DNA of 64,000 nt from Tautonia marina. GTDB taxonomy: Bacteria; Planctomycetota; Planctomycetia; Isosphaerales; Isosphaeraceae. The position numbers were made by a program, and so were the translations under genes. Below the pieces are notes generated by a model, which was given only the letters and a program-made list of their open reading frames with translations, was not told the DNA's origin and searched no databases. The stretch's first letter is position 1. Every line of letters begins with the position of its first letter. The stretch covers positions 62,001-126,000 of the forward strand of contig NZ_WEZF01000019.1 in assembly GCF_009177065.1 (NCBI RefSeq). Reading direction: 5' to 3'. Below are positions 13,721 through 25,689 of this stretch, in pieces.

Positions 13721-15151
13721 TCAGGCCAGAATGGGGTGGACGACGTGGCCGTGGACGTCGGTCAGGCGCATATCTCGGCCGCTGAAGCGGTAGGTGAGGC
13801 GGGTGTGGTCGATGCCGAGCAGGTGGAGAATGGTGGCGTGGAGGTCGTAGATCTCGACCTTGTTCTCCACCGCGTGGTAGCCGTAATCGTCGGTCGCGCC
13901 GTGGATGGTGCCCCCTTTGATGCCACCGCCGGCGAGCCACATGGTGAAGCCGAAGGGGTTGTGGTCGCGGCCGTTGGTGCCCTGGGCCATGGGGGTGCGG
14001 CCGAACTCGCCGCCCCAGACGACGAGGGTGGAGTCGAGCAGGCCACGGGCTTTGAGGTCGCGGAGCAAGGCGGCAATGGGTTGATCGACGGCTCGGGCGT
14101 TGTCCTCGTGACCCTTTTTGAGATTGGAATGCTGGTCCCAGCGGTCGTGGCCGACGCCGGGGCAGGTCAGCTCGATGAAGCGGACGCCGCGCTCGACGAG
14201 GCGGCGGGCCAGGAGGCACTGGCGAGCGTAGGACTGGGTGGCGGGATACGGCGCGTCGAAGCCGTAGAGTCGAAGGGTGGCGGGAGACTCGCCGGAGAGG
14301 TCGGTCAGCTCGGGAACTGCCGATTGCATGCGGAAGGCAAGCTCGGCGTTGGCGATGGCGGATTCGATGGCGTCGTGTTCACCGATTTGGGTGAGCAGGT
14401 CACGATCCATCGATCGGATGAGATCGAGCTTGCGGCGCTGGACGTCGAGGGAGTCGTCGGCGGGGGCGATGTTGGCGAGCGGCCGGTCGCCGGATTTGAG
14501 GATCGAGGCCTGATAGGAGGCGGAGAGGAAGCCGTTGCCGAAGCAGTCGAGCCCGCCGGGGGGGATGAGGCCGCCGTTGAGGACGACGAAGCCGGGGAGA
14601 TCCTGACTTTCGGAGCCGAGGCCGTAGGTAATCCACGAACCGGCGCTCGGACGCCCTTGCTGGCCGTGACAGGTGTGAAGGAAATAGTTGGCGTTGGTGT
14701 GTTCCGAAAAGTTCGAGACCATCGATCGGATGATCGCCAGATCATCAACGCATGATCCGACGTGGGGAAAGAGGTCGCTGACGGGAATGCCACTCTCTCC
14801 TCGACGGCGGAAGGCCCAGGGAGAGCCGAGGACGGCGCCGACGTCGTTGAACTGGGTCGGTTCGACGCGGGTCTGGATGGGTTGACCGTGCTCTCGGGTG
14901 AGGCGGGGCTTGGGGTCGAAGGTATCGACCTGGGAGGGGCCGCCGTCCATGTAGAGGAAGATGACGCTTTTTGCCTTCGGTGGGTGATGGAGGGTGGTGG
15001 CCGGGCGATTGGTGTCAGTTTCGGTTGAGGGGGCGAGCAGGGAACCGAAGGCGGAGTCGGTGAGCAAGGAAGTGAGCGCCAGCGCACCGAAGCCGTTGGC
15101 GCCGCGGGAAAGCAGGGCTCGACGTGAGAGGGGAGAGGCAAGGCGGCTCAT
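13721..15151 (-). CDS. DUF1501 domain protein (sulfatase-like fold), Tat-exported
   Basis: 476 residues from the ATG at 15151, with GGAG upstream. The N-terminus carries a Tat-type signal (LSRRALLSRGANGFGALA). Family marks: VIFLYMDGGPSQVDTFDPKP, VRFIELTCPGVGHDRWDQH, VVWGGEFGRTPMAQ and GRDHNPFGFTMWLAGGG; the last regions hold the metal-binding residues of the alkaline phosphatase-like superfamily. In planctomycetes this gene is almost always beside a DUF1549/1553 gene, as here. The biochemical role is not established; secreted glycan or sulfate-ester processing is a guess from the fold. Confidence 0.93.
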   Translation of the reverse strand: MSRLASPLSRRALLSRGANGFGALALTSLLTDSAFGSLLAPSTETDTNRPATTLHHPPKAKSVIFLYMDGGPSQVDTFDPKPRLTREHGQPIQTRVEPTQFNDVGAVLGSPWAFRRRGESGIPVSDLFPHVGSCVDDLAIIRSMVSNFSEHTNANYFLHTCHGQQGRPSAGSWITYGLGSESQDLPGFVVLNGGLIPPGGLDCFGNGFLSASYQASILKSGDRPLANIAPADDSLDVQRRKLDLIRSMDRDLLTQIGEHDAIESAIANAELAFRMQSAVPELTDLSGESPATLRLYGFDAPYPATQSYARQCLLARRLVERGVRFIELTCPGVGHDRWDQHSNLKKGHEDNARAVDQPIAALLRDLKARGLLDSTLVVWGGEFGRTPMAQGTNGRDHNPFGFTMWLAGGGIKGGTIHGATDDYGYHAVENKVEIYDLHATILHLLGIDHTRLTYRFSGRDMRLTDVHGHVVHPILA

Positions 15152-15284
15152 GGCGAGTCTCCAATCGGCGGCGGTCGGCAAGGGAGGATCGAGGGGCAAA
15201 TCGGATCAACAGTCGTTCGCGTGTTGAGCGTTGAGTGGATGGCCCTGGGGCGATGGTGCAAGGCTGGGGGCCCCCTCATCCCAG

Positions 15285-15310
15285 CCCTCTCCCCGCCCGC
15301 GGGGAGAGGG
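15285..15310. repeat. GC-rich palindrome between the cytochrome and DUF1501 genes
   Basis: CCCTCTCCCC (15285-15294) pairs with GGGGAGAGGG (15301-15310) around a 6-base loop. It is preceded by CCCTCATCCCAGC, a layout seen in dispersed intergenic palindromes of several high-GC bacteria. It starts 11 bases after the cytochrome gene's stop and may protect or attenuate the transcript. Confidence 0.6.
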
Positions 15311-15320
15311 GGCCGGAAGG

Positions 15321-18224
15321 TTAGTCGAGATAGAGGAATTCCTTGGCGTTGAAAAGGGCGTGGCAGAGGTCGGCCCAAGAGGAGGAGGACTGGAAGGCAA
15401 GAGCGCGGGAGCGTTCGGCGTCGGTGGGGGGGCGGGAGAAGGCGGCGAGGTAGAGGGTTTCGACCACGGCGTCAGGAGAGAGGGAGGAATCGGCGGTGGC
15501 GCGGTCGGCCCAGCGGTGGGCCTGGTCGAGGACGAAGGGATCGTTCATCAGGGCGAGGGACTGCGCGGGAACGTTGGAGGAATCGCGCCGACCTCGGGTG
15601 GTGGCGGGTTTGGGAAAGTCGAAGGCGAGGAGGAAGGGGGAAAGGAAGTTGCGACGAATGTTCAAATAAAGACTTCGGCGTCCGCTTCCGTCGAGCGGGC
15701 CGGATTCGCGGGGGCGTCCGCGGCCTTCCATGAAGGGAGTCAGATGGGTGGGAACACTGGGGCCGTAGAGGGTGGCATCAAGGCGTCCGGAGAGGAACAG
15801 CATGGTGTCGCGCAGGGCCTCGGCGTCGAGACGGCGAAGGTTGGCGCGATGGAGCAACAGGTTGTCGGGGTCGATGGTGTCGGCTTCGGATCGGGGGTGG
15901 CTGGACATCCGGAAGGCGGATGAGGTCATGAGGAGCCGATGCATGTGTTTGATCGACCAGCCGGAGCGGATGAACTCGGAGGCAAGCCAGTCGAGCAGCT
16001 CAGGATGCGAAGGAGGGGAGCCCATCACGCCGAAGTCGTCGGGAGAGGCGACGAGGCCGCGGCCGAAGTGGTGCGCCCAGAGGCGGTTGACCAGCACGCG
16101 AGCGGTGAGGGGGTTGGCTGGGTCGGCAATGCGTCGGGCGAGGGTCAGGCGGTCGGGGGCCTCGTCCCCCAGGACTTCGAGGAAGGCGCGGGGGACGACC
16201 GAGCCAAGGTTCTTCGCACTGCCCCGGATGTGCACCGGCACGTCGATGCCGGTTCCGTCGGCGGCGGCGAGGGCGAGGGTCGGTTCGGGAAGGGAGGCGG
16301 TGATCTCCAGGTATCGGTTGACGAGCGAGGAGGCGTCGTCGGAAAGCGAGGCGCGAGGGATTCGGCCCAGGATCGGTCCGGTGGCGGCGGTGGGGGGGAT
16401 GACCGGGGGTTCGCGGTGATCGGACAGGAGGATCCGGCCAACCGCAAGGTGTCCATCGCCCGGAATGAGGGACGAGGTCGCGCCGGTGTAGTCGGACGAG
16501 GCGCCATCGGCCAGTTCAAGGTAGGCGAGATGGCCAAGCCACATGGAGGCGTCGAGTGTGAGCCATCGGGGCTCGTCGCCGTGATTGACGGCGCGGGTCA
16601 AGCCGCCGTAGATGGGGCTCCGAATTTTCTCGAAGCCATCGATCACCAGATTGACACGCCCGGATGTCCCGGAAACGAGCAGGTGAACATAAGGCTGATC
16701 GATGGTGAAGGTCTTCGATCGAAGCACGCCGACCAGGCCGGGGGCTATCGCGCCGCTCTGAGCCCAGCCGGGACCCAGGAGCAGGAGGTTGCCGTCGGGG
16801 TCGACCGTCACGTCGCCGGATCGGGTGGGACGGGGGCCGAAGGCGTGACCGGAGGGGAACCAGGAGGCGAACGAGGAGAAGTCTTCGAACAGGGTGTCGC
16901 CGCTGCGAGGAGGGGGAGAGGGGGCTCGTCGCGGGGCCGGAGGCTCGGCCTCGGCGGCGAGGGCGTTGCGAAGGGCGTCCAGCTCGGTCAGGGGGGTATC
17001 GAAGACCTCGGGGGCGTCGATCACGGCGTACTGATGGCGGGTACTTTGCAAGTGGCCGGCAAGGGCGTAGTAATCGCGGGTGGTGATGGCGTCGAACTTG
17101 TGGTCGTGGCAGCGGGCACAGGCGACGGTCAGGCCGAGGAAGGTCTTGCTCAGGACGTCGATCTGGTTATCAACGCGCGTGCGCATTTCCTCGGTCACGT
17201 CGACCGGCGAGTGTGTTCCCTCGGCGAAGAAATAAGCCATCGTTCCGAGGATTGACTCATTCGTGCCGGTGTCGGGATGGCGGCGGGGATCGTCGAGCAG
17301 ATCGCCGGCGAGGTGTTCGACGACGAACTGATCATAAGGGACGTCGTTGTTGAAGGATCGGATGACGTAGTCGCGATAGCGGTGGGCGGTGAGGATGTCG
17401 TAATCGAACTCGTGGCCCGAGGTCTCAGCAAAGCGAACGAGGTCGAGCCAGTGTCGCGCCCAGCGTTCGCCGTACTGGGGGGATTCCAGGAGGCGATCGA
17501 CGAGGCGATCGAAGGCGTCGGGCGCGTCGTCGTCAAGAAACGCGCGGAGCTGTTCGGGGGTGGGGGGAAGGCCGGTCAGGATGATCGAGGCGCGGCGGAT
17601 CAGGGTGTGGCGCTCGGCCTCGGGAGCAGGCGCAAGTCCCTCGGCTTCGAGGCGAGCAAGGAGGAAGCGGTCAATCGGGTTGCGGGGCCAGTCGGTCCGA
17701 TCGACGGCGGGAAGGGGGGGATCGGCGATCGGCTGGAGGCTCCAGTGCGAGGCTCGGGCGGCGAGGTCGAAGGGGTCGGCCGGGCTGGGGGCGGCGGCGG
17801 CTCCACTCGGGGCGGCCTCGTCGGGCCAGACGGCTCCCTGGGCGATCCAGTCGGTGAGCCGGGTGATCTCGGCGTCGGGCAGTTTCGACGAGGGGGGCAT
17901 CTGCACGAAGGAGTCGTAGCGAATGGCCTCGATGAGCAGGCTCGCGTCCGGATCGCCGGGCTCGATGGGAGGGCCGGAATCGCCGCCAAGGTCGAAGACG
18001 GCGGCCTTCGAGTCGAGGCGAAGCCCCCCCTTGCGCTGGTCGGGACCGTGGCAGGAGACGCAACGCTCGACGAGGATCGGCCGGATGTGCGTCTCGAAAA
18101 AGGCGACCGATCGCGGGTCGTTCGGGTCGTTTGCATCCTGGGCGTGCAGGGGAACGGAGGCCGGGAGCAGCAGAAGGGAAAGGGTGGCAGGCAGGACGAA
18201 TCGAGCGGGGAGGATCGGCTGCAT
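15321..18224 (-). CDS. Planctomycete-type cytochrome c with DUF1549 and DUF1553
   Basis: 967 residues from the ATG at 18224. Signal peptide (FVLPATLSLLLLPASVPLHA), then a PSCyt1 heme domain with CVSCHG (Cys55, Cys58, His59) and GGLRLDSK, DUF1549 at about 165-375 (DWPRNPIDRFLLARLE, YGERWARHWLDLVRFAET), a beta-rich insertion at about 430-620 that looks like a LamG-type jelly roll (FSSFASWFPSGHAFGP, YVHLLVSGTSGRVNLVIDG), and DUF1553 at about 680-945 (LARRIADPANPLTARVLVNR, MGSPPSHPELLDWLASEF). It is exported to the periplasm; the reaction is unknown. It is the first gene of the trio with DUF1501 and DUF3365. Confidence 0.93.
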   Translation of the reverse strand: MQPILPARFVLPATLSLLLLPASVPLHAQDANDPNDPRSVAFFETHIRPILVERCVSCHGPDQRKGGLRLDSKAAVFDLGGDSGPPIEPGDPDASLLIEAIRYDSFVQMPPSSKLPDAEITRLTDWIAQGAVWPDEAAPSGAAAAPSPADPFDLAARASHWSLQPIADPPLPAVDRTDWPRNPIDRFLLARLEAEGLAPAPEAERHTLIRRASIILTGLPPTPEQLRAFLDDDAPDAFDRLVDRLLESPQYGERWARHWLDLVRFAETSGHEFDYDILTAHRYRDYVIRSFNNDVPYDQFVVEHLAGDLLDDPRRHPDTGTNESILGTMAYFFAEGTHSPVDVTEEMRTRVDNQIDVLSKTFLGLTVACARCHDHKFDAITTRDYYALAGHLQSTRHQYAVIDAPEVFDTPLTELDALRNALAAEAEPPAPRRAPSPPPRSGDTLFEDFSSFASWFPSGHAFGPRPTRSGDVTVDPDGNLLLLGPGWAQSGAIAPGLVGVLRSKTFTIDQPYVHLLVSGTSGRVNLVIDGFEKIRSPIYGGLTRAVNHGDEPRWLTLDASMWLGHLAYLELADGASSDYTGATSSLIPGDGHLAVGRILLSDHREPPVIPPTAATGPILGRIPRASLSDDASSLVNRYLEITASLPEPTLALAAADGTGIDVPVHIRGSAKNLGSVVPRAFLEVLGDEAPDRLTLARRIADPANPLTARVLVNRLWAHHFGRGLVASPDDFGVMGSPPSHPELLDWLASEFIRSGWSIKHMHRLLMTSSAFRMSSHPRSEADTIDPDNLLLHRANLRRLDAEALRDTMLFLSGRLDATLYGPSVPTHLTPFMEGRGRPRESGPLDGSGRRSLYLNIRRNFLSPFLLAFDFPKPATTRGRRDSSNVPAQSLALMNDPFVLDQAHRWADRATADSSLSPDAVVETLYLAAFSRPPTDAERSRALAFQSSSSWADLCHALFNAKEFLYLD

Positions 18225-18268
18225 CGGTCGGTGCCTCCGGCGCGGGCGGGCGAGCAAGCGAGCCCGTG

Positions 18269-18314
18269 AAAAAACGATCAATCGATTCCAACGACACGGG
18301 GCTCGGTGGAATCG
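18269..18314 (-). terminator. Terminator of the zinc-ribbon/DUF2007 gene
   Basis: On the reverse strand an 8-bp stem (CGATTCCA/TGGAATCG, 18283-18314) is followed after eight bases by a run of six T (18269-18274 as A on the + strand). It lies between the DUF2007 gene and the cytochrome start. The remaining bases of 18225-18455 show no gene. Confidence 0.55.
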
Positions 18315-18455
18315 AGGACGATGACGCTCGCCGTGGTGTTCAACAGAATTCCAGCATGACCGATGCGGCGAGGATTGTCGAGTCGCTCCGCGCGGGATCG
18401 ACAAGGAAGGAGAGGTCGGGCGACTCGGACCGATGGCGAGAGATCCTCGTGCAAT

Positions 18456-19115
18456 TCAGGATCGAATGAGGCCGATGAGGCCCCCGACGACCACCAGAAG
18501 CGACAGCACGACTCCCCAGAAGACCAGGGTTGATCGCCAGTCGGTGATGTCGGAACTCGGGTCGATCGACCGGGCTGGTTCGTCCCAGTCGTCGTCATCC
18601 TCGTCCTCGTCGTCGGCGGGAACGGACCAGGATTGCGACAGGATAATGCGGGCGTCCTGCGCCAGGGCGCGAGGGACCTGAAGGCGGATGCCTCCGGAGA
18701 GGAGGTGATAGCCGTGAGAGGCCATGCGGTGGCCGTCGATGAGGGTGGGAATGGCCTCGGCGTCGAGTCGAATGCGGGCGGCTTCGGCCTGAAAGGGAAG
18801 CGGGAACGAGCCGACGGTGACCCAGTCGATCGGCTGGTGGTCGGCCAGGGTAAGCAACGGCTCGGGAGGTTCGTGGGCGAGGGGCAGATCGTGCTTCGGG
18901 CAGGGAGCGTCGGCCGGAAGGGGCCAGAAGGATTCGCAGACAGTGCAATACCCCTGCGGCTGAAGCCGGTCGCCGCACTCGGGGCAGAGGTCGGCGTGGT
19001 TCGCGCGTCTCGGCCTGGCGCATCCGGGGCAAAAACGAGGGGGTTGCAGGCGAGAACGACCCCGGAGCGCATCGCCTCCGGGGTCGTCAAGCGTCCCGGG
19101 CCAGTCGTCCCGCAT
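18456..19115 (-). CDS. Zinc-ribbon, DUF2007 and C-terminal membrane helix protein
   Basis: 219 residues from the ATG at 19115 (MRDDWPGT), with GAGAGG upstream. Two zinc-ribbon-like Cys pairs (CPGC...CPEC, then CTVC...CPKH) come first. A DUF2007 domain follows (VTVGSFPLPFQAEAARIRLD, GIRLQVPRALAQDARII), a small fold often called a putative signal-transducing domain. Then come an acidic stretch (DDEDEDDDDWDEPA) and one C-terminal membrane helix (TLVFWGVVLSLLVVVGGLIG). This is a tail-anchored layout facing the cytoplasm. The function is unknown; metal or nucleotide sensing would be a guess. It is monocistronic, 131 bases below the plsY fusion. Confidence 0.8.
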   Translation of the reverse strand: MRDDWPGTLDDPGGDALRGRSRLQPPRFCPGCARPRRANHADLCPECGDRLQPQGYCTVCESFWPLPADAPCPKHDLPLAHEPPEPLLTLADHQPIDWVTVGSFPLPFQAEAARIRLDAEAIPTLIDGHRMASHGYHLLSGGIRLQVPRALAQDARIILSQSWSVPADDEDEDDDDWDEPARSIDPSSDITDWRSTLVFWGVVLSLLVVVGGLIGLIRS

Positions 19116-19246
19116 GGGTGAGCCTCTCGGGCTGCGGGGAGGATGGAGGTCTTCCCCGCATTCGAAATCCCTGCGTCGTGATTCCTCATCCAGTGTAGTC
19201 GGAAAGGGACGCGATGGGTACCGCCGAGAGAAGGGAACGAAGCCCC

Positions 19247-21031
19247 TCAACGGGTTGGCGTCTCAGAGGTCGGATTCGCTGCCGAGGCGAGGGAATCGGC
19301 CTGCTGGTCGCGGAAGGAGACGAGTCGGACCCCTCCGGAACGATCGGAGATGGCCAGGAGCCCACGATCGGCGCTGTAGGCCAGGCCGATCGGAATGATC
19401 GTGCCGAAGTTCAAGGGGCCTTTCAAGGGAAGCTGACCGACCGCCCGACGGTGGCGACCGTGGACCAGTTCGAGTGCCGAGCCGTACGGTAGGGTAGTCA
19501 CGAGCAAGGGGCCATCGGTCCCGGGAGGCTCGGGAATCAAAAGCGTATCACGATTGGAAGCGACGGGCATGAGAATTTCATCGTCGTCGATGGGCGTGGC
19601 AGAGAGGTACGGAACCTCTCGAGTGGCTAGCGGAACGCGGCCGGTGATCACGGGAGCGGTCGAGTCGGAAAGATCGACGCAGGCGATGGTTTGCGATTGG
19701 CCCAGGACGACGGCGGCAAACCGACCGGAGTCGGACAGAATGATCCGCTCGGGGTCGTCGTTGGGTTCGAGAAATTCGAGCTGAGCAACGATCTCATGCT
19801 CCTCCGTGGAATCACCGACCGAGACGACCACCAGGGCCGGGGCGGGCTTGCTCTCGTCTCCTCCTTCGGAACGCCCGGAGGTGAGGACGTACGCTAGGCG
19901 ACCGTCGGGGCTGAAGGTGAAGTCGTCCGGGTCCCAGCCGATCCGGAATTTCGAGCCGAGCGGCTCGCCGGCGTGCGAGAAGGCTTCCCAGTAGCCGGCC
20001 TCCAGATGCCGGTCGTCGCCGGTGGGACGTTGCAGTACGAACAGCCGATCCCCCTCTTCGTAAACCGCAACGGGACGGCCGTGAAGCAGAAGATCATTTG
20101 TCAACGACACGTTATCATGTTCGTCAATCTGAAAGAGAACGAGGCGATTGTAACGCGGACAGGCAACGACGAGCAGGCGGCCTTCATCGGCGAACGCCAG
20201 CGCACCGGCGCGTTGATGTCCGGTGCGGAAACGCGCGACCTCAGTTAGCTCGGCCGAGCCGAGGCGAAGGGACGGGGCGCGTCGGTCGGCGTCGAGCAGG
20301 GTCGAGGCACCCAGCGAGGCTCCGCCGAGCAGCACGACCACGGCCAGGAGAATCGGCCAGGCGCGGCCGTCGCGATCGGACGAGCGTTTGCCGAAGCTGA
20401 CCTTCGACTCGGTGCCGGCGCGGATGCGAGAAAGATTCGATCGGTGGCGGTAGATCAACATGAGATAAAGCACCACGATCAGGAGGGCGAGGGGAAGATC
20501 CGAGGCGGTCATCGGTAGCGATTGCCTGGCAAAGTGGACCATCACGAAGACCGTCCCGCCAAGGATCGAAGACATCGACACATATCGGGTGATGACCAGA
20601 ACGATGACGAAGCCCACCGCCGCGGCCAGGGCGGCGACGGGGTCGAGCGCGATGACCGCGCCGAGGCTGGTGGCCACCCCCTTGCCACCTCGGAGGCGGA
20701 GGAAGGCAGAGAAGTTGTGCCCGAGGATCGCCGCCAGGGCAACCGGGACCGACAGGACGGGAACCGCCCGGCCGGTGATCGCCTCGACCAGCAGCGGGAA
20801 GCCGAGGGTCGGCCCCAGCCCCTTGAGCAGGTCGAGCATCATCACCAGAACAAAATAACGAAATCCGAGAATGCGACCAACATTGGTGGCGCCGACGTTT
20901 CCGGAACCGACGGTGCGAATGTCGATCCCCTTGACCCCCCTGGCCACGAGGTAGCCGAAGGGGATCGACCCGATGAGGTAGGCCAGGACGACGGCGAGGA
21001 AGCAGAGGGCAAGGGTCATCGTCGGGGTCAT
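19247..21031 (-). CDS. plsY: PlsY glycerol-3-phosphate acyltransferase fused to a C-terminal beta-propeller-like domain
   Basis: 594 residues, three times the usual PlsY length of about 200. Residues 1-210 are a complete PlsY with its three motifs: GSGNVGATN (42-50), GHNFSAFLRLRGGKGVA (104-120) and RHRSNLSRIRAGTESK (195-210). PlsY moves acyl from acyl-phosphate to glycerol-3-phosphate in the inner membrane, the first step of phospholipid synthesis. An extra membrane helix (226-245) leads to about 330 residues of repeated strands (GALAFADEGRLLVVACPRYN, DDFTFSPDGRLAYVLTSG, GLAYSADRGLLAISDRSGG) like a YVTN/WD-type propeller. No frameshift or stop separates the parts. The ATG overlaps the upstream nucleotidyltransferase stop by four bases. 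Confidence 0.92.
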   Translation of the reverse strand: MTPTMTLALCFLAVVLAYLIGSIPFGYLVARGVKGIDIRTVGSGNVGATNVGRILGFRYFVLVMMLDLLKGLGPTLGFPLLVEAITGRAVPVLSVPVALAAILGHNFSAFLRLRGGKGVATSLGAVIALDPVAALAAAVGFVIVLVITRYVSMSSILGGTVFVMVHFARQSLPMTASDLPLALLIVVLYLMLIYRHRSNLSRIRAGTESKVSFGKRSSDRDGRAWPILLAVVVLLGGASLGASTLLDADRRAPSLRLGSAELTEVARFRTGHQRAGALAFADEGRLLVVACPRYNRLVLFQIDEHDNVSLTNDLLLHGRPVAVYEEGDRLFVLQRPTGDDRHLEAGYWEAFSHAGEPLGSKFRIGWDPDDFTFSPDGRLAYVLTSGRSEGGDESKPAPALVVVSVGDSTEEHEIVAQLEFLEPNDDPERIILSDSGRFAAVVLGQSQTIACVDLSDSTAPVITGRVPLATREVPYLSATPIDDDEILMPVASNRDTLLIPEPPGTDGPLLVTTLPYGSALELVHGRHRRAVGQLPLKGPLNFGTIIPIGLAYSADRGLLAISDRSGGVRLVSFRDQQADSLASAANPTSETPTR

Positions 21032-21774
21032 CCGATCTTGAGCCGGGGTCGGTCGGGAAGGCCGAGGAACTCGGGGCGGCGGGCCTCGAACATCTCGTTG
21101 GCGGCGGCGTAGTCGTCGTGGCGGCCGATGTCGAGCCAGGTGCAGTCCTGGCGGAAGCAGTGCACGGGATGGCCGGCGGCGCGCATCTGTTCCAGCAGGT
21201 CGGGCATGGTCAGCTCGCGGCCGGGGGCGAGAAAATCCCAGGCCACAGGGTCGAGCATATAAAGACCCATGCTCACCTGAAACGAGAATTCGGGCTTCTC
21301 GCGGTATCCAGCCAGCACATGCGGATCGTTGGCGAATTCGAGGACGCCGAAATCAATCCGCACCGTTCGAGGGAACGAGGCGATGGTTGCTTTGGCCCCT
21401 TGCGAGCGGTGGAAACTGGCCATTGCCGAGAAGTCGAGTGTCGTGAGGATGTCGCCGTTGAGGACGAGAACGGGTTCCTTTGGCCGATCGACCAGGACCA
21501 AACCGCCCGCGGTGCCGAGCGGAGTGACCTCGCGCTGATAGTCGATCGAGGTGCCGAAGCGACGGCCGTTGCCGCAGAAAGCCTCGATCAACTCAGTCAG
21601 ATATCCGGTAATGATGGTTACATCATGGAAGCCGTGCCGTGCGAGCTGGCGGAGGACGACCTCCAGAATCGGCATTGGCTCGCGCTCTCCCAACGGCATG
21701 AGCGGCTTCGGGAAGACGTGCGTGAAGGGGCGGAGCCGGGTTCCCTTGCCACCTGCCAGTACGATTGCCTGCAT
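21028..21774 (-). CDS. Sugar-1-phosphate nucleotidyltransferase
   Basis: 248 residues from the ATG at 21774, preceded by GGAGG. The nucleotide-binding signature is at the very N-terminus (IVLAGGKGTRLRPFT, FPKPLMPLGE). LNGDILTTLDF holds the metal/sugar-binding Asp, and YREKP and TWLDIGRHDDY follow. It should activate a sugar phosphate as NDP-sugar, most like mannose-1-phosphate guanylyl- or glucose-1-phosphate thymidylyl-transferases; the sugar and base cannot be decided. The neighbours (LPS core genes and a GDP-deoxymannose-reductase-like gene) suggest a donor for LPS or capsule. It is followed directly by the plsY fusion. Confidence 0.88.
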   Translation of the reverse strand: MQAIVLAGGKGTRLRPFTHVFPKPLMPLGEREPMPILEVVLRQLARHGFHDVTIITGYLTELIEAFCGNGRRFGTSIDYQREVTPLGTAGGLVLVDRPKEPVLVLNGDILTTLDFSAMASFHRSQGAKATIASFPRTVRIDFGVLEFANDPHVLAGYREKPEFSFQVSMGLYMLDPVAWDFLAPGRELTMPDLLEQMRAAGHPVHCFRQDCTWLDIGRHDDYAAANEMFEARRPEFLGLPDRPRLKIG

Positions 21775-21817
21775 CCTTGGGAATCCTCCGTCGAGAGAAC
21801 GGCCGAGCCTGGCGAGG

Positions 21818-23044
21818 TCAGGCGGCGGCGGTGGGTCGGGGACGGGTCGGCCGGTGCGTTGTGCGAGCGGCAGAGCGTTCGGCGGCCACGTCTTCAAAAA
21901 GCGCGATCAAGCGATTGAGATGAACATCAAACGATTGAGCCTGGCCCAACCGGGTCGCCGCCTGCGACATGGTTCGGCGGTGCTCGTCGTCGCAAAGGGC
22001 GTCGAGGGCGTCGGCGAGGGCGGGCAAGTCGTCGGCTCGGGGGATGACGAACCCTTCGACACCCGGGGTGATGACCTCTCCTGCGCCGTTGGTGGCGGTG
22101 GTGATCACCGGCAAGCCGCAGGCGAGGGCCTCGAAGACGACGAGCGAGCAGGGGTCGTAATAGCTGGGCAGCACAAAGGCATCGGAACCGTGAAAGGCTT
22201 CCCGGATGTCGCGCTCGAAACCGATGAGGTGGACCGTGTCTTGCAAGCCCAGGGCCTCAACCTTGCGACGGTATGGGGCGAGCTTGCCCCCGCCGCAGAC
22301 GGCCAGGTGAACGGGGCGGGCGCCGGGTTGGCGATCGAGCCGGAGCCGAAGGGCATCGAGCAAGGGATCGAGCCCCTTGAGGCGGAAGTTGTGCGCCACA
22401 AACAGGGAGATCAGGGCATCGTCGGGCAGTCCGAGCCGCGACCGGAAGGCGCGACGGGCCGAGAGAGGATCCTCGACCTGAAGCCGGGACGCGTCGATCG
22501 CGTTGGGAATCACCCGGATGCGATCGGCCGGGACGTGGTATTGCCGTTCGAGATGCCCTTGCACAAAGCGGCTGACGGCGACAACTCGGGCGGCGCGCCG
22601 GGGGTCGTACTGGCGGCGCTCGATGGATCGGTAGAGCCAGTCCTTCGGGTTCGCTCGCTTGCTGAGGCGGTAAAGGGAGCGCCGCCAGCCTTCGGGGAAG
22701 CGTCGGGCGTTGTGGTCGAGGCTGGCGGGATGGATGCCCCCCTGGGGGATGATGATGTCGTGATGCCAGGTATTGATAAATCCGACCGAGCAATCGAACG
22801 ATCCCTGGCGGATCGCGGATTCGGAGTTGCGGGCGAAGCGGAGCATGCGAGCCCAGCGAGTCGGGCCGTGGGCGGCCACGGGGACGATGCGCACCTCGGG
22901 GGGCACGGCTCCGTCGGCACAGGAGGCGGTGTACAGGTCAACCCGGTGGCCGCGCTCGACAAGGCGTCGGCAGAGGTCGGCGACGTAGGTCTCGGCGCCT
23001 CCCTTCGACGGATCGACGCGTTGAAAGGTGATCGCAAGATGCAT
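21818..23044 (-). CDS. Glycosyltransferase family 4, WaaG-like
   Basis: 408 residues from the ATG at 23044. GT-B fold: N-terminal loop VDPSKGGAETYVADLCRRL, sugar-nucleotide half with RVIPNAIDASRL, FVLPSYYDPCSLVVFEALAC and GLPVITTATNGAGEVI. The DCSVGFINTWHHDI segment recalls the WaaG LPS core glucosyltransferase, which adds glucose to heptose on the inner face of the inner membrane. The adjacent WaaP-like kinase and WaaF-like transferase support an LPS core role. The exact sugar is inference. Confidence 0.85.
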   Translation of the reverse strand: MHLAITFQRVDPSKGGAETYVADLCRRLVERGHRVDLYTASCADGAVPPEVRIVPVAAHGPTRWARMLRFARNSESAIRQGSFDCSVGFINTWHHDIIIPQGGIHPASLDHNARRFPEGWRRSLYRLSKRANPKDWLYRSIERRQYDPRRAARVVAVSRFVQGHLERQYHVPADRIRVIPNAIDASRLQVEDPLSARRAFRSRLGLPDDALISLFVAHNFRLKGLDPLLDALRLRLDRQPGARPVHLAVCGGGKLAPYRRKVEALGLQDTVHLIGFERDIREAFHGSDAFVLPSYYDPCSLVVFEALACGLPVITTATNGAGEVITPGVEGFVIPRADDLPALADALDALCDDEHRRTMSQAATRLGQAQSFDVHLNRLIALFEDVAAERSAARTTHRPTRPRPTAAA

Positions 23045-23093
23045 CGAGGCCCTCCCGAGGCGGTGGTCCGAATCGGTCGCACGGTCTGAAGGG

Positions 23094-23963
23094 TCAGCCA
23101 CCGCGAACCTTCTTGAGATTGTGCGCGTGATACCGAGCGGCCCGAGCCTGGATAACGCGGGCATCGAGATCAGGCCAGCTCAGGTTCATTCGTTGACGAT
23201 AGCGAAGCCAGAAGCGAAGCCGGTCGCGGTCGTCGATCCCCTCGACGTCGATCGTGGAAAAGAGCAGTTGCGCCAGGTCTTTCCACCGCCACCAGACGCT
23301 CGACAGGCGGTGCGAGGCGAGGCGGTGCAGGTCGATGAGGTAGAGGGGAGAATCGCTTCGCTCAGGGTCGATGTAGTAATGGCAAAGATACAGGTCTTTA
23401 TGGAATGATCGGGCGTGGTGGAGGCGAGCGGTCAGCTCGGCCATGCCGTTGATGAGTCGTCGTTTCCAGGCGGCGAAGGCCGGTGGATCAAGGCGATCCA
23501 TCATGCTCGGGATGGCTTCGTGGAGCGGGAGGAAACCGGTGAGTTCCTCAACCATCAAGTAACTTTGCACCTGTCCCCAGGGGCCGATGGCCTCGCCCGC
23601 GGCGACGGGCTCGGGGACGAGGAGGCCCAGCTCGCGTCCCCGGTGCAGGTGACGCCACTCGGCCCCGGCGGGAGAGTGGCGGCCGTCGGGGTGGAGCAGG
23701 GCGGCGAGTCGGGTCGGCCAGGGAAGCTGGTAATGCCGCTTCAGGTAGACGGTGAGCGGGCCGCTGGGGGCGTCGAAGCGAACGCGGCAGGTGGAGCGGC
23801 CCTGCTTCGCGTGGAGGCGGTCGTCGGACTGGATCTGCATGACGATCGCGTCGAGGTCGGGCGGCAAGCGGTCGCCGTGGCTCGGCGATCGCCAGGCCCA
23901 TCGGGTGCCCTGCGTGAGGCGCTGAACCAGGGAGCCGGCGGGGGAGCTTGGCGGTGAGTTCAT
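23094..23963 (-). CDS. LPS core heptose kinase-like protein (WaaP/InaA family)
   Basis: 289 residues. The ATG at 23963 overlaps the upstream stop by four bases (ATGA), which favours it over a start six codons earlier. Kinase-like features: VYLKRHY with the ATP-binding Lys, LMVEELTG hinge, the catalytic segment FHKDLYLCHYYID, which matches the WaaP form HRDxYxCH, and LYLIDLHRLA for the metal-binding Asp. WaaP phosphorylates heptose I of the LPS core, strengthening the outer membrane. Context with WaaG-, WaaF- and LpxK-like genes agrees. No signal peptide; it should be a cytoplasmic enzyme. Confidence 0.85.
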   Translation of the reverse strand: MNSPPSSPAGSLVQRLTQGTRWAWRSPSHGDRLPPDLDAIVMQIQSDDRLHAKQGRSTCRVRFDAPSGPLTVYLKRHYQLPWPTRLAALLHPDGRHSPAGAEWRHLHRGRELGLLVPEPVAAGEAIGPWGQVQSYLMVEELTGFLPLHEAIPSMMDRLDPPAFAAWKRRLINGMAELTARLHHARSFHKDLYLCHYYIDPERSDSPLYLIDLHRLASHRLSSVWWRWKDLAQLLFSTIDVEGIDDRDRLRFWLRYRQRMNLSWPDLDARVIQARAARYHAHNLKKVRGG

Positions 23964-25591
23964 CGAAGGATTCCCTCCCACGACTCGGGCTGAGCGAAGC
24001 GGTAGACGTGGACGCCGATGGTGTCGCCCCCTTGCCGTTCGGGAAAGGCGGCGACGGGAACGGCGGCGTAGTCGAGCAAGGCGGCGAGCGTCTCGGCGCG
24101 GCGGCTCTCAGCGGTCAATTCGTCGTCAGAGATGACAATATAAGCGAGCTTCTCGTCGGTCAATGCCTGGCGAATGTGCCAGGGTCCGTACGACCGCAGG
24201 TCGGAGACGAAGGCGGCCCAGCCTCGGGTATCGAGCACGGCATCGCCCGGTCCGGCGCGCTGGGCGAGCCACTGGCCGGCCTGCTGGTAGCCCCATCGGC
24301 TCGCGTGGCCGGGCTTGAGCTGAAGGGCCACGACACCGACGAGGAGCAGGGCAAGGGCCAGTCTCGCCAGCCGTTGCCGACGTGCTGGAGCGAGTGCGCG
24401 ACGATCGGCCCACCGTCGAGCCAGATCGAGCAGCCCGAAAGCCGACCACGGCAAGACGGCCACCACGAACAGAGCGCAGTGCCGATCGGACAGATACCCG
24501 GTGGTCATCGTGTGTCGGATCAGGATGACCAGGAATCCGACCGCGAGCAGGCCGAGGGCCTGGCGGGCCGGACGTGATCGGCGAGGGCCGCGGTGGTGCC
24601 AGGCTCCCCAGCAGGCCAGCGGGATGAGCACCCAAACGCTCGCCTCGGTCGCGCGCCGAGCCACGAGAACTGAGGCGGGAAGCAGGCCAAGCCGACCGGG
24701 GGCGTCCGATTCTTCCTTTGGCGCAAAGTCCCAGCGCGGGTCGTCGAGGCCCGGAGGAACCCAGAGCGGCACGCTCCGCGAGACGCCAGTGCCATCTCCC
24801 AGACCGGTGGCGACTCGGAGCGAGAGCTTCTCGGACACCGTTCCCTTCACGGCGGCATAGGAACCGATCAGGACCACGAAGGGGAGTACCAGCAACGCGA
24901 TCTTCTGGAGCGATGCCGCCAGTCCGAGATGAGGGGGGGGCAGGATCGGCGTGCCATCCCGCTCCATCGAATGCTTGCGTGATGCCCGAATCATGCGTTC
25001 CAGGCGGTTCACGAAGCCTCCCGCCAGGACGACCACCGGCACGACGGCGACCTCGGGCCGGGCGAGATAGCCAAGACCGGCGCAGAGTCCGCAAGCGATT
25101 GCGGACCGGGAATGGCCGGTGGTCAGGGCCTGCGTTCCGAAGGCGAGGGCAGCGACGGCAAACAGCAAGGCGGTGGCATCGCTGAGGGTTTCGTGCCCAA
25201 GTTCGGCAAAGAGGGGGATGATCGGGAACAGCAAGGTGGCGAGCAGGGCCGATCGCCGACCGACGCAACGACGAGCAAGGGCGAAGACCAGGGGAATGGC
25301 GGCGAGTATCGCCAGCATCGAGACGGCCTGGGCGGCGATCCGCCAGGAATCGGGGCCGTTGGCGATCCGGGGGGCGATGGCTGGGTGCAGGGTGGCGATG
25401 AGGGCAGGATAGAGCGGGTGCTGGTCGGCATTGCGGACCACGTCGGCCCAGGGCTGTTCGCCGAACTCGCGGGCGATCCGGATGAATTTCAGGCCGTCTT
25501 GCGAGGGGAGCGGCGTGCGGATCATCCCCACGATCTGCAGCAAGGCGGTCAGCACGAGAATGGCGATCAGCGATCGATGGCGGGGGATCAC
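23960..25591 (-). CDS. PMT/ArnT-like membrane glycosyltransferase
   Basis: 543 residues from a GTG at 25591, chosen because AAGGAGG lies eight bases upstream; an in-frame TTG at 25687 has none. First helix SLIAILVLTALLQIVGM, then a periplasmic loop with the QDG acidic motif (SQDGLKFIRIA) and DQHPLYPALIA, both typical of the GT39/GT83 superfamily, then about ten more helices and a soluble C-terminal domain (VLDTRGWAAFVSDLRSYGPW). Family members move a sugar from a polyprenyl-phosphate carrier to protein or lipid A. The LPS gene neighbours favour a lipid target. Four-base overlap with the WaaP-like gene. Confidence 0.82.
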   Translation of the reverse strand: MIPRHRSLIAILVLTALLQIVGMIRTPLPSQDGLKFIRIAREFGEQPWADVVRNADQHPLYPALIATLHPAIAPRIANGPDSWRIAAQAVSMLAILAAIPLVFALARRCVGRRSALLATLLFPIIPLFAELGHETLSDATALLFAVAALAFGTQALTTGHSRSAIACGLCAGLGYLARPEVAVVPVVVLAGGFVNRLERMIRASRKHSMERDGTPILPPPHLGLAASLQKIALLVLPFVVLIGSYAAVKGTVSEKLSLRVATGLGDGTGVSRSVPLWVPPGLDDPRWDFAPKEESDAPGRLGLLPASVLVARRATEASVWVLIPLACWGAWHHRGPRRSRPARQALGLLAVGFLVILIRHTMTTGYLSDRHCALFVVAVLPWSAFGLLDLARRWADRRALAPARRQRLARLALALLLVGVVALQLKPGHASRWGYQQAGQWLAQRAGPGDAVLDTRGWAAFVSDLRSYGPWHIRQALTDEKLAYIVISDDELTAESRRAETLAALLDYAAVPVAAFPERQGGDTIGVHVYRFAQPESWEGILR

Positions 25592-25689
25592 CGCGTCGCC
25601 CTCCTTGGACGTGAAGCGAATCGGATGCGCGGTCCGCTCCCTGGACCGCTTGGGCGGGATTGTCGGGGGGTTTGGGAGAACGGTCAAGG

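Follow-up and report, generated by a model that had tools for sequence, protein, structure and literature searches.

A PlsY acyltransferase fused to a predicted beta-propeller in Tautonia marina and other Isosphaeraceae

The matching of phospholipid synthesis to lipopolysaccharide (LPS) synthesis in Gram-negative cells is an open question. In the available portions of two reports on Escherichia coli, YejM (PbgA) is a sensor of periplasmic LPS that governs the turnover of LpxC and is copurified with PlsY (PMC7773988, PMC11633183). The accessible part of a 2026 preprint confirms the PlsY-YejM contact, models it within the membrane, leaves its role open and describes normal growth of a mutant in which the contact is broken (PMC13060810). 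PlsY of Aquifex spans the membrane with seven helices, and its functional residues are in two long loops on the cytoplasmic side, according to the available text of PMC5700162. The same text describes PlsY-DegV fusions (printed as DagV) in Bellilinea and Thermanaerothrix, DegV being a fatty-acid-binding family proposed to hand over acyl-phosphate, and a C-terminal PlsY fusion as such is therefore already known.

The window analyzed here, a stretch of 64,000 nucleotides of the Tautonia marina genome, contains a gene in which PlsY continues in frame into a further membrane helix and a predicted beta-propeller. Aquifex PlsY is a protein of ∼200 residues with seven helices, to which the T. marina protein adds an eighth helix and the propeller. 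As in PlsY-DegV, the addition is on the C terminus of PlsY, but in T. marina it consists of a propeller preceded by an extra membrane helix. A likeness to the E. coli PlsY-YejM pair is that PlsY is linked with an inner-membrane part bearing a large domain, which in T. marina is probably periplasmic and in YejM is periplasmic and LPS sensing, but YejM is a separate protein and its domain is arylsulfatase-like. A further parallel was found in another planctomycete family (f3), in which PlsY is fused to DUF4149 in four scanned proteins, three above the cut-off and one below (L054:1459-2721, L039:2625-3956, L042:2658-3902, and L044:197-1735). These are also C-terminal fusions, and that of L042 lies beside kinase and GT4 genes, but what they add to PlsY is a membrane domain (PF13664) rather than a propeller, and the fusion apparently arose independently; in Isosphaeraceae, DUF4149 is found apart from PlsY in six of the eight genomes tested. 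The view in the first-pass annotation that PlsY has nothing attached was consequently too strong, given the published DegV fusions (as far as that source was available) and the DUF4149 fusions found here. No published description of PlsY with a propeller was found in titles and abstract openings, subscription papers lying mostly outside the scope of the search.

Fusion gene and predicted structure

The fusion gene (19250..21031, minus strand) has 594 codons, an ATG start, no internal stop, and a stop codon at 19247-19249, and its open frame is conserved in relatives. It encodes a PlsY glycerol-3-phosphate acyltransferase domain (residues 1-212; 20396..21031), an eighth membrane helix (residues 224-250; 20282..20362) and a propeller of the seven-bladed type (residues 254-575; 19307..20272), all on the minus strand. 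The joining in one frame of PlsY, an extra helix and ∼330 residues of propeller strands, originally read directly from the DNA, was thus confirmed.

Residues 8-212 match PlsY models above their cut-offs (PF02660, E value of 3e-48 and 164.5 bits against 24.1; TIGR00023, 161.6 bits against 137.2), and residues 12-210 can be aligned to the structure of Aquifex aeolicus PlsY (5xj5). The alignment places all three PlsY motifs (SGN.GATN, GH....F.GGKG or alike, and HR.N..R, with what we take to be their limits) in the N-terminal part, as had been claimed, with GHNFS where the family consensus is GHNFP. On the basis of family cut-offs and motifs, the fusion protein is a PlsY predicted to acylate glycerol-3-phosphate in an acyl-phosphate-dependent manner. 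It is the single PlsY match in the T. marina genome (rated 97.8% complete), and genes for PlsX and LpxC are found elsewhere in that genome.

The eighth helix is a hydrophobic stretch with a bias of lysine and arginine around it. We infer that the C terminus of the PlsY part should be cytoplasmic, since the first functional stretch comes after the first helix, and that one more helix would then place the propeller outside the inner membrane. The bias points in the same direction: the 20 residues preceding the helix contain more K and R than those following it in 24 of 27 proteins, with one tie and two opposite cases (L032 and L036), both of which are split forms. The bias is absent from two of the four split propellers tested; in L034, one of the split genes, the residues counted ahead of the helix extend past the likely start codon. 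Expressed as net charge, it holds in 22 of 27 proteins, with two ties. The propeller is therefore probably periplasmic, and a cytoplasmic location is disfavored by both helix count and charge. The full-length model (pLDDT of 85.5, pTM of 0.60) gives the helix low confidence, in blocks of pLDDT 56 to 64, and the mutual placement of PlsY and propeller is therefore not firm.

A separate model of the C-terminal part, built with 11 sequences (alignment A3), is nearly all beta (pLDDT of 88.9, pTM of 0.86). Foldseek matched it to 1,531 solved chains at an E value of ≤0.001, the best 50 of which were headed by propellers. In the best 50 VIA rows, 248 to 280 residues were aligned at Z scores of 25.9 to 27.6, with rmsd values mostly of 2.2 to 3.5 and some up to 10.3. 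The confident model matches solved seven-bladed propellers across the domain, although strands are fewer than expected in blades 5 and 6, and the domain is predicted to be a seven-bladed beta-propeller. A fold prediction other than a propeller, which would have told against the first description, was not obtained. The Foldseek and VIA rows were used for fold and not for function.

Family membership is less distinct. Beyond PlsY, scans against Pfam and NCBIfam placed the T. marina protein in no family above cut-off; the strongest match of the C-terminal part below it was choice_anch_I (E value of 3.9e-4, 19.4 bits against a cut-off of 300). The Lactonase model PF10282 scores the T. marina domain at 14.4 bits, below its cut-off of 21.7, and appears in 9 of 27 members at E values up to 1 (best, 3.6e-4), and DUF1513 appears weakly in 6 of 27 (best, 5.1e-5). 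A likeness to YVTN/lactonase-type propellers is also evident from the domain profile, which finds the surface-layer protein 1l0q at 1.8e-9 and Lp49 and YncE weakly, but the 1l0q match spans 36 positions only and gives no family assignment. The propeller motifs around QR, CPRY, GD.RH, PDD, SG.AEG, and RSGG were recognized in no family scanned.

The D-A and B-C loops share one face of a propeller, and conservation is concentrated there. Mean conservation in blades 1 to 4 and 7 is 0.69 for D-A and B-C loops versus 0.48 for A-B and C-D loops (Mann-Whitney P = 3e-6, or 1.4e-5 without Gly and Pro, for columns of related sequences, which are not independent). Strand letters were assigned by us from the model, and blades 5 and 6, in which the strands are ill defined, were excluded. 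Nineteen polar columns are near invariant, with one residue in ≥85% of 27 rows. Ten of them belong to loops of the D-A or B-C type (T270, Q273, R274, R293, Y294, D339, H342, S385, E389, and N541, the last in the loop before blade 7 and outside the conservation test) and none in A-B or C-D loops. R267, R296, R319, R429, R465, C291, D369, and D370 are within three strand residues of the conserved loops, and D453 is at the other edge of the strands. The model thus predicts one-sided conservation of near-invariant polar residues on the propeller. Arginine accounts for 7 of the 19 columns, two in D-A or B-C loops and five no more than three residues away. Together with one His, these stand against five acidic columns, and the face is therefore not simply basic; an anionic binding partner is a reasonable guess at most.

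Gene neighborhood

The start of the fusion gene overlaps the stop of a sugar nucleotidyltransferase gene (21028..21897, minus strand; PF00483, 2.8e-37; start codon of the mechanical ORF uncertain) by four bases (21028-21031), which agrees with the overlap noted initially. Further upstream on the same strand are genes for a GT4 glycosyltransferase (21818..23164; PF00534 and PF13439), a Kdo/WaaP-type kinase (23094..23981; PF06293, 1.3e-21) and a GT39-like membrane glycosyltransferase (23960..25687; PF13231, 7.2e-14). Downstream, also on the minus strand, is a gene (18456..19250; start codon uncertain) for a protein that, as judged by eye, has several Cys pairs near its N terminus and a hydrophobic helix toward its C terminus, and that has no Pfam match at an E value of 0.01. 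Beyond it, at 13721-18404, a PSCyt1/DUF1549/DUF1553 gene adjoins a gene that by eye resembles DUF1501, which is an ordinary planctomycete gene pair.

Fourteen loci were compared with that of T. marina, 13 with PlsY and one (L036) with a detached propeller only. The sugar nucleotidyltransferase gene is directly upstream of PlsY in all 13, the GT4 gene is present in 12, and the Kdo/WaaP-type kinase and GT39-like genes are each present in 11. The missing neighbors belong to L095 and L096, where contigs end. A homologue of the downstream protein is present in 6 of the 13. The envelope-sugar genes first noted near the fusion are therefore part of a gene order conserved in the family.

In 13 loci from other families, homologues of the kinase and GT4 genes were found beside PlsY in two, both without a propeller (L042:3978-6046, family f3, same strand; L049:720-2848, family f6, other strand), and were not found within ∼3 kb in the other 11. 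The gene link may thus predate the propeller fusion, and the propeller is not needed for the association with kinase and GT4. The neighbors of the detached propeller of L036 (genome G008) gave no functional lead. One neighboring frame resembles, by eye, the DNA polymerase III delta subunit.

Possible roles of the propeller

We favor, with a probability of roughly 0.4, a periplasmic propeller on PlsY that binds an envelope ligand or partner and tunes phospholipid to glycolipid output. A single inner-membrane protein would comprise a PlsY with intact motifs, acting from the cytoplasmic side, and an eighth helix by which the seven-bladed propeller reaches the periplasm. The conserved face might bind a partner protein or an anionic envelope molecule; among the latter, the likeliest candidates are lipid head groups and the phosphates or acidic sugars carried by lipid A or LPS. 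Binding could, via the membrane helices, adjust or position the first step of phospholipid synthesis, and phospholipid output would be matched to that of envelope glycolipid.

Several lines of evidence favor this reading. First, conservation of the propeller is one sided. Second, the propeller is predicted to be on the periplasmic side. Third, gene order with the Kdo/WaaP-type kinase is conserved, which points to an LPS-type glycolipid. Fourth, PlsY and YejM are in contact in E. coli; by analogy, the propeller may be a sensing or docking part of PlsY and might bind lipid A or LPS as YejM does, and a regulatory effect is likewise suggested by this pair. Counting against a sensing or regulatory role are the modeled location of the YejM contact within the membrane and the health of the contact mutant. 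DUF3413 (PF11893), presumably the N-terminal membrane domain of YejM, was matched neither in the fusion protein nor in any of the 45 family genomes, a result that says little about the absence of YejM because only E. coli was detected among 14 controls. LapB (PF18073) was also found in none of the 45, but under an E limit that is strict for its length and with a 28-position model that matched 10 of 14 controls, Gram-positive bacteria included, so that no conclusion is based on it.

Of the first-pass interpretation, the PlsY with a membrane-tethered propeller and the envelope-sugar neighborhood stand, both being conserved in the family, while sensing or binding and a balance between phospholipid and LPS are still inferred roles. 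It is doubtful that Isosphaeraceae PlsY is itself an envelope sensor, in which the propeller would detect LPS or a different anionic glycolipid and thereby control entry into phospholipid synthesis at its first committed step. If true, it would be a one-protein answer to the phospholipid-LPS balance, for which E. coli uses separate proteins.

Alternatively, the propeller could be an independent periplasmic enzyme, lactonase- or hydrolase-like, that acts on envelope glycan or lipid and is fused to PlsY only for equal expression and a shared location. The conserved loops contain residues that could suit an active site (His, Arg, Asp, and Glu), the weak resemblance to Lactonase PF10282, DUF1513, and choice_anch_I leans the same way, and the two parts are separate genes in five genomes, with a start/stop overlap in the three read directly. 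However, no propeller-family match of the T. marina protein exceeds a cut-off, no known catalytic set was recognized, and in none of the 45 family genomes did the profile search find a second strong propeller; on balance we consider such an enzyme unlikely. The separate genes indicate that a covalent link is not required, which argues against obligatory coupling through one chain.

Propellers often bind proteins, and the domain could instead be a platform for docking, keeping PlsY together with partners in the periplasm or inner membrane, e.g., parts of glycolipid transport, without sensing. The conserved gene neighborhood would fit such a platform, and many VIA rows are WD40 scaffolds, although a shared fold shows no function. 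By residue type, the conserved loop positions are charged and polar, unlike what a plain hydrophobic patch would show, and a platform of this kind seems rather improbable.

Under the preferred reading of a ligand- or partner-binding propeller, lipid synthesis in Isosphaeraceae would be tied to an envelope signal or partner. PlsY of this family bears a probable periplasmic domain of its own, and such a naturally occurring fusion offers a way to test how phospholipid and LPS are matched and gives planctomycete envelope biology a defined target.

Distribution and history

When 59 related genomes were searched, either the complete protein or its separate halves turned up throughout Isosphaeraceae. 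A profile of the C-terminal part (alignment A1, 27 rows) matched 43 of the 45 family genomes, and the fusion is carried by 37 of the 45. For four of the genomes, G005, G023, G024, and G035, fused status comes from the search of related genomes rather than from the class survey below, and for G063 and G065 it comes from equal frame lengths. A profile search of contigs with a subset of the alignment (A2) returned 10 loci, one recorded as Tautonia sociabilis (L090) and nine as Isosphaeraceae, Singulisphaera, Planctomycetales, or Planctomycetota.

An artifact (frameshift, misassembly) or a chance open frame has a negligible probability, since, although an interrupted PlsY frame in G064 (L087) illustrates that such faults occur, the intact fusion lies on one contig in 35 of the 45 family genomes, T. 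sociabilis included. A frameshift or stop between the parts, which would have undone the first description, was ruled out by relatives that carry the same fusion and keep the frame at 36 to 88% identity. In G006, the fusion is cut by contig ends. In G064, whose assembly is rated 100% complete, the interruption reflects either an assembly error or a damaged PlsY.

The five genomes with separate halves are G031, G013, G025, G066, and G008. The halves are adjacent in the first four (the propeller of G066 being visible only partly) and ∼15 kb apart on opposite strands in G008. In G013, G031, and G025, PlsY and the propeller gene overlap at stop and start codons, and production of the two proteins is therefore likely to be coupled there, which is not so in G008. 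Three genomes cannot be assigned, G029 and G034 because of contig ends and G009 because neither part was found.

In a sample of 392 genomes from the phylum, in which approximately five candidates were scored per genome, the profile gave 22 matches. Only two were strong (>400 bits), both from family members; the other 20 scored ≤25.1 bits, as expected of other propellers.

In the class survey, PlsY was found in 197 of 297 genomes, and the lengths of planctomycete PlsY, which had been proposed as a check on the fusion, differed by family. Among the matches listed, the frames of the fused/split family (f1) have ≥560 residues except in split genomes, and 23 of the 24 frames of f3 have ≥411. Frames of f2, f4, f6, f104, and f115 are of ∼210 to 315 residues among the matches listed, with two exceptions in f2 (367 and 374 residues). 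Among the rows listed, nine f5 and three f7 genomes had no PlsY by the PlsY model. Five of these (G040, G045, G049, G054, and G057) are rated 98 to 99% complete, and another first acyltransferase may therefore serve in them.

Trees were built from 33 family genomes, that of PlsY with 11 outgroup rows and that of the propeller alone. The family PlsY sequences form one clade (support of 86/95, below the tool's own mark). Genera g6, g11, and g12 cluster in both trees (87/83 and 98/98), while deeper order differs between the two, and the propeller of G022 has a very long branch. Separate halves are seen in g6, in g11, and in one of the two g15 genomes, and the fused or split state has therefore changed more than once.
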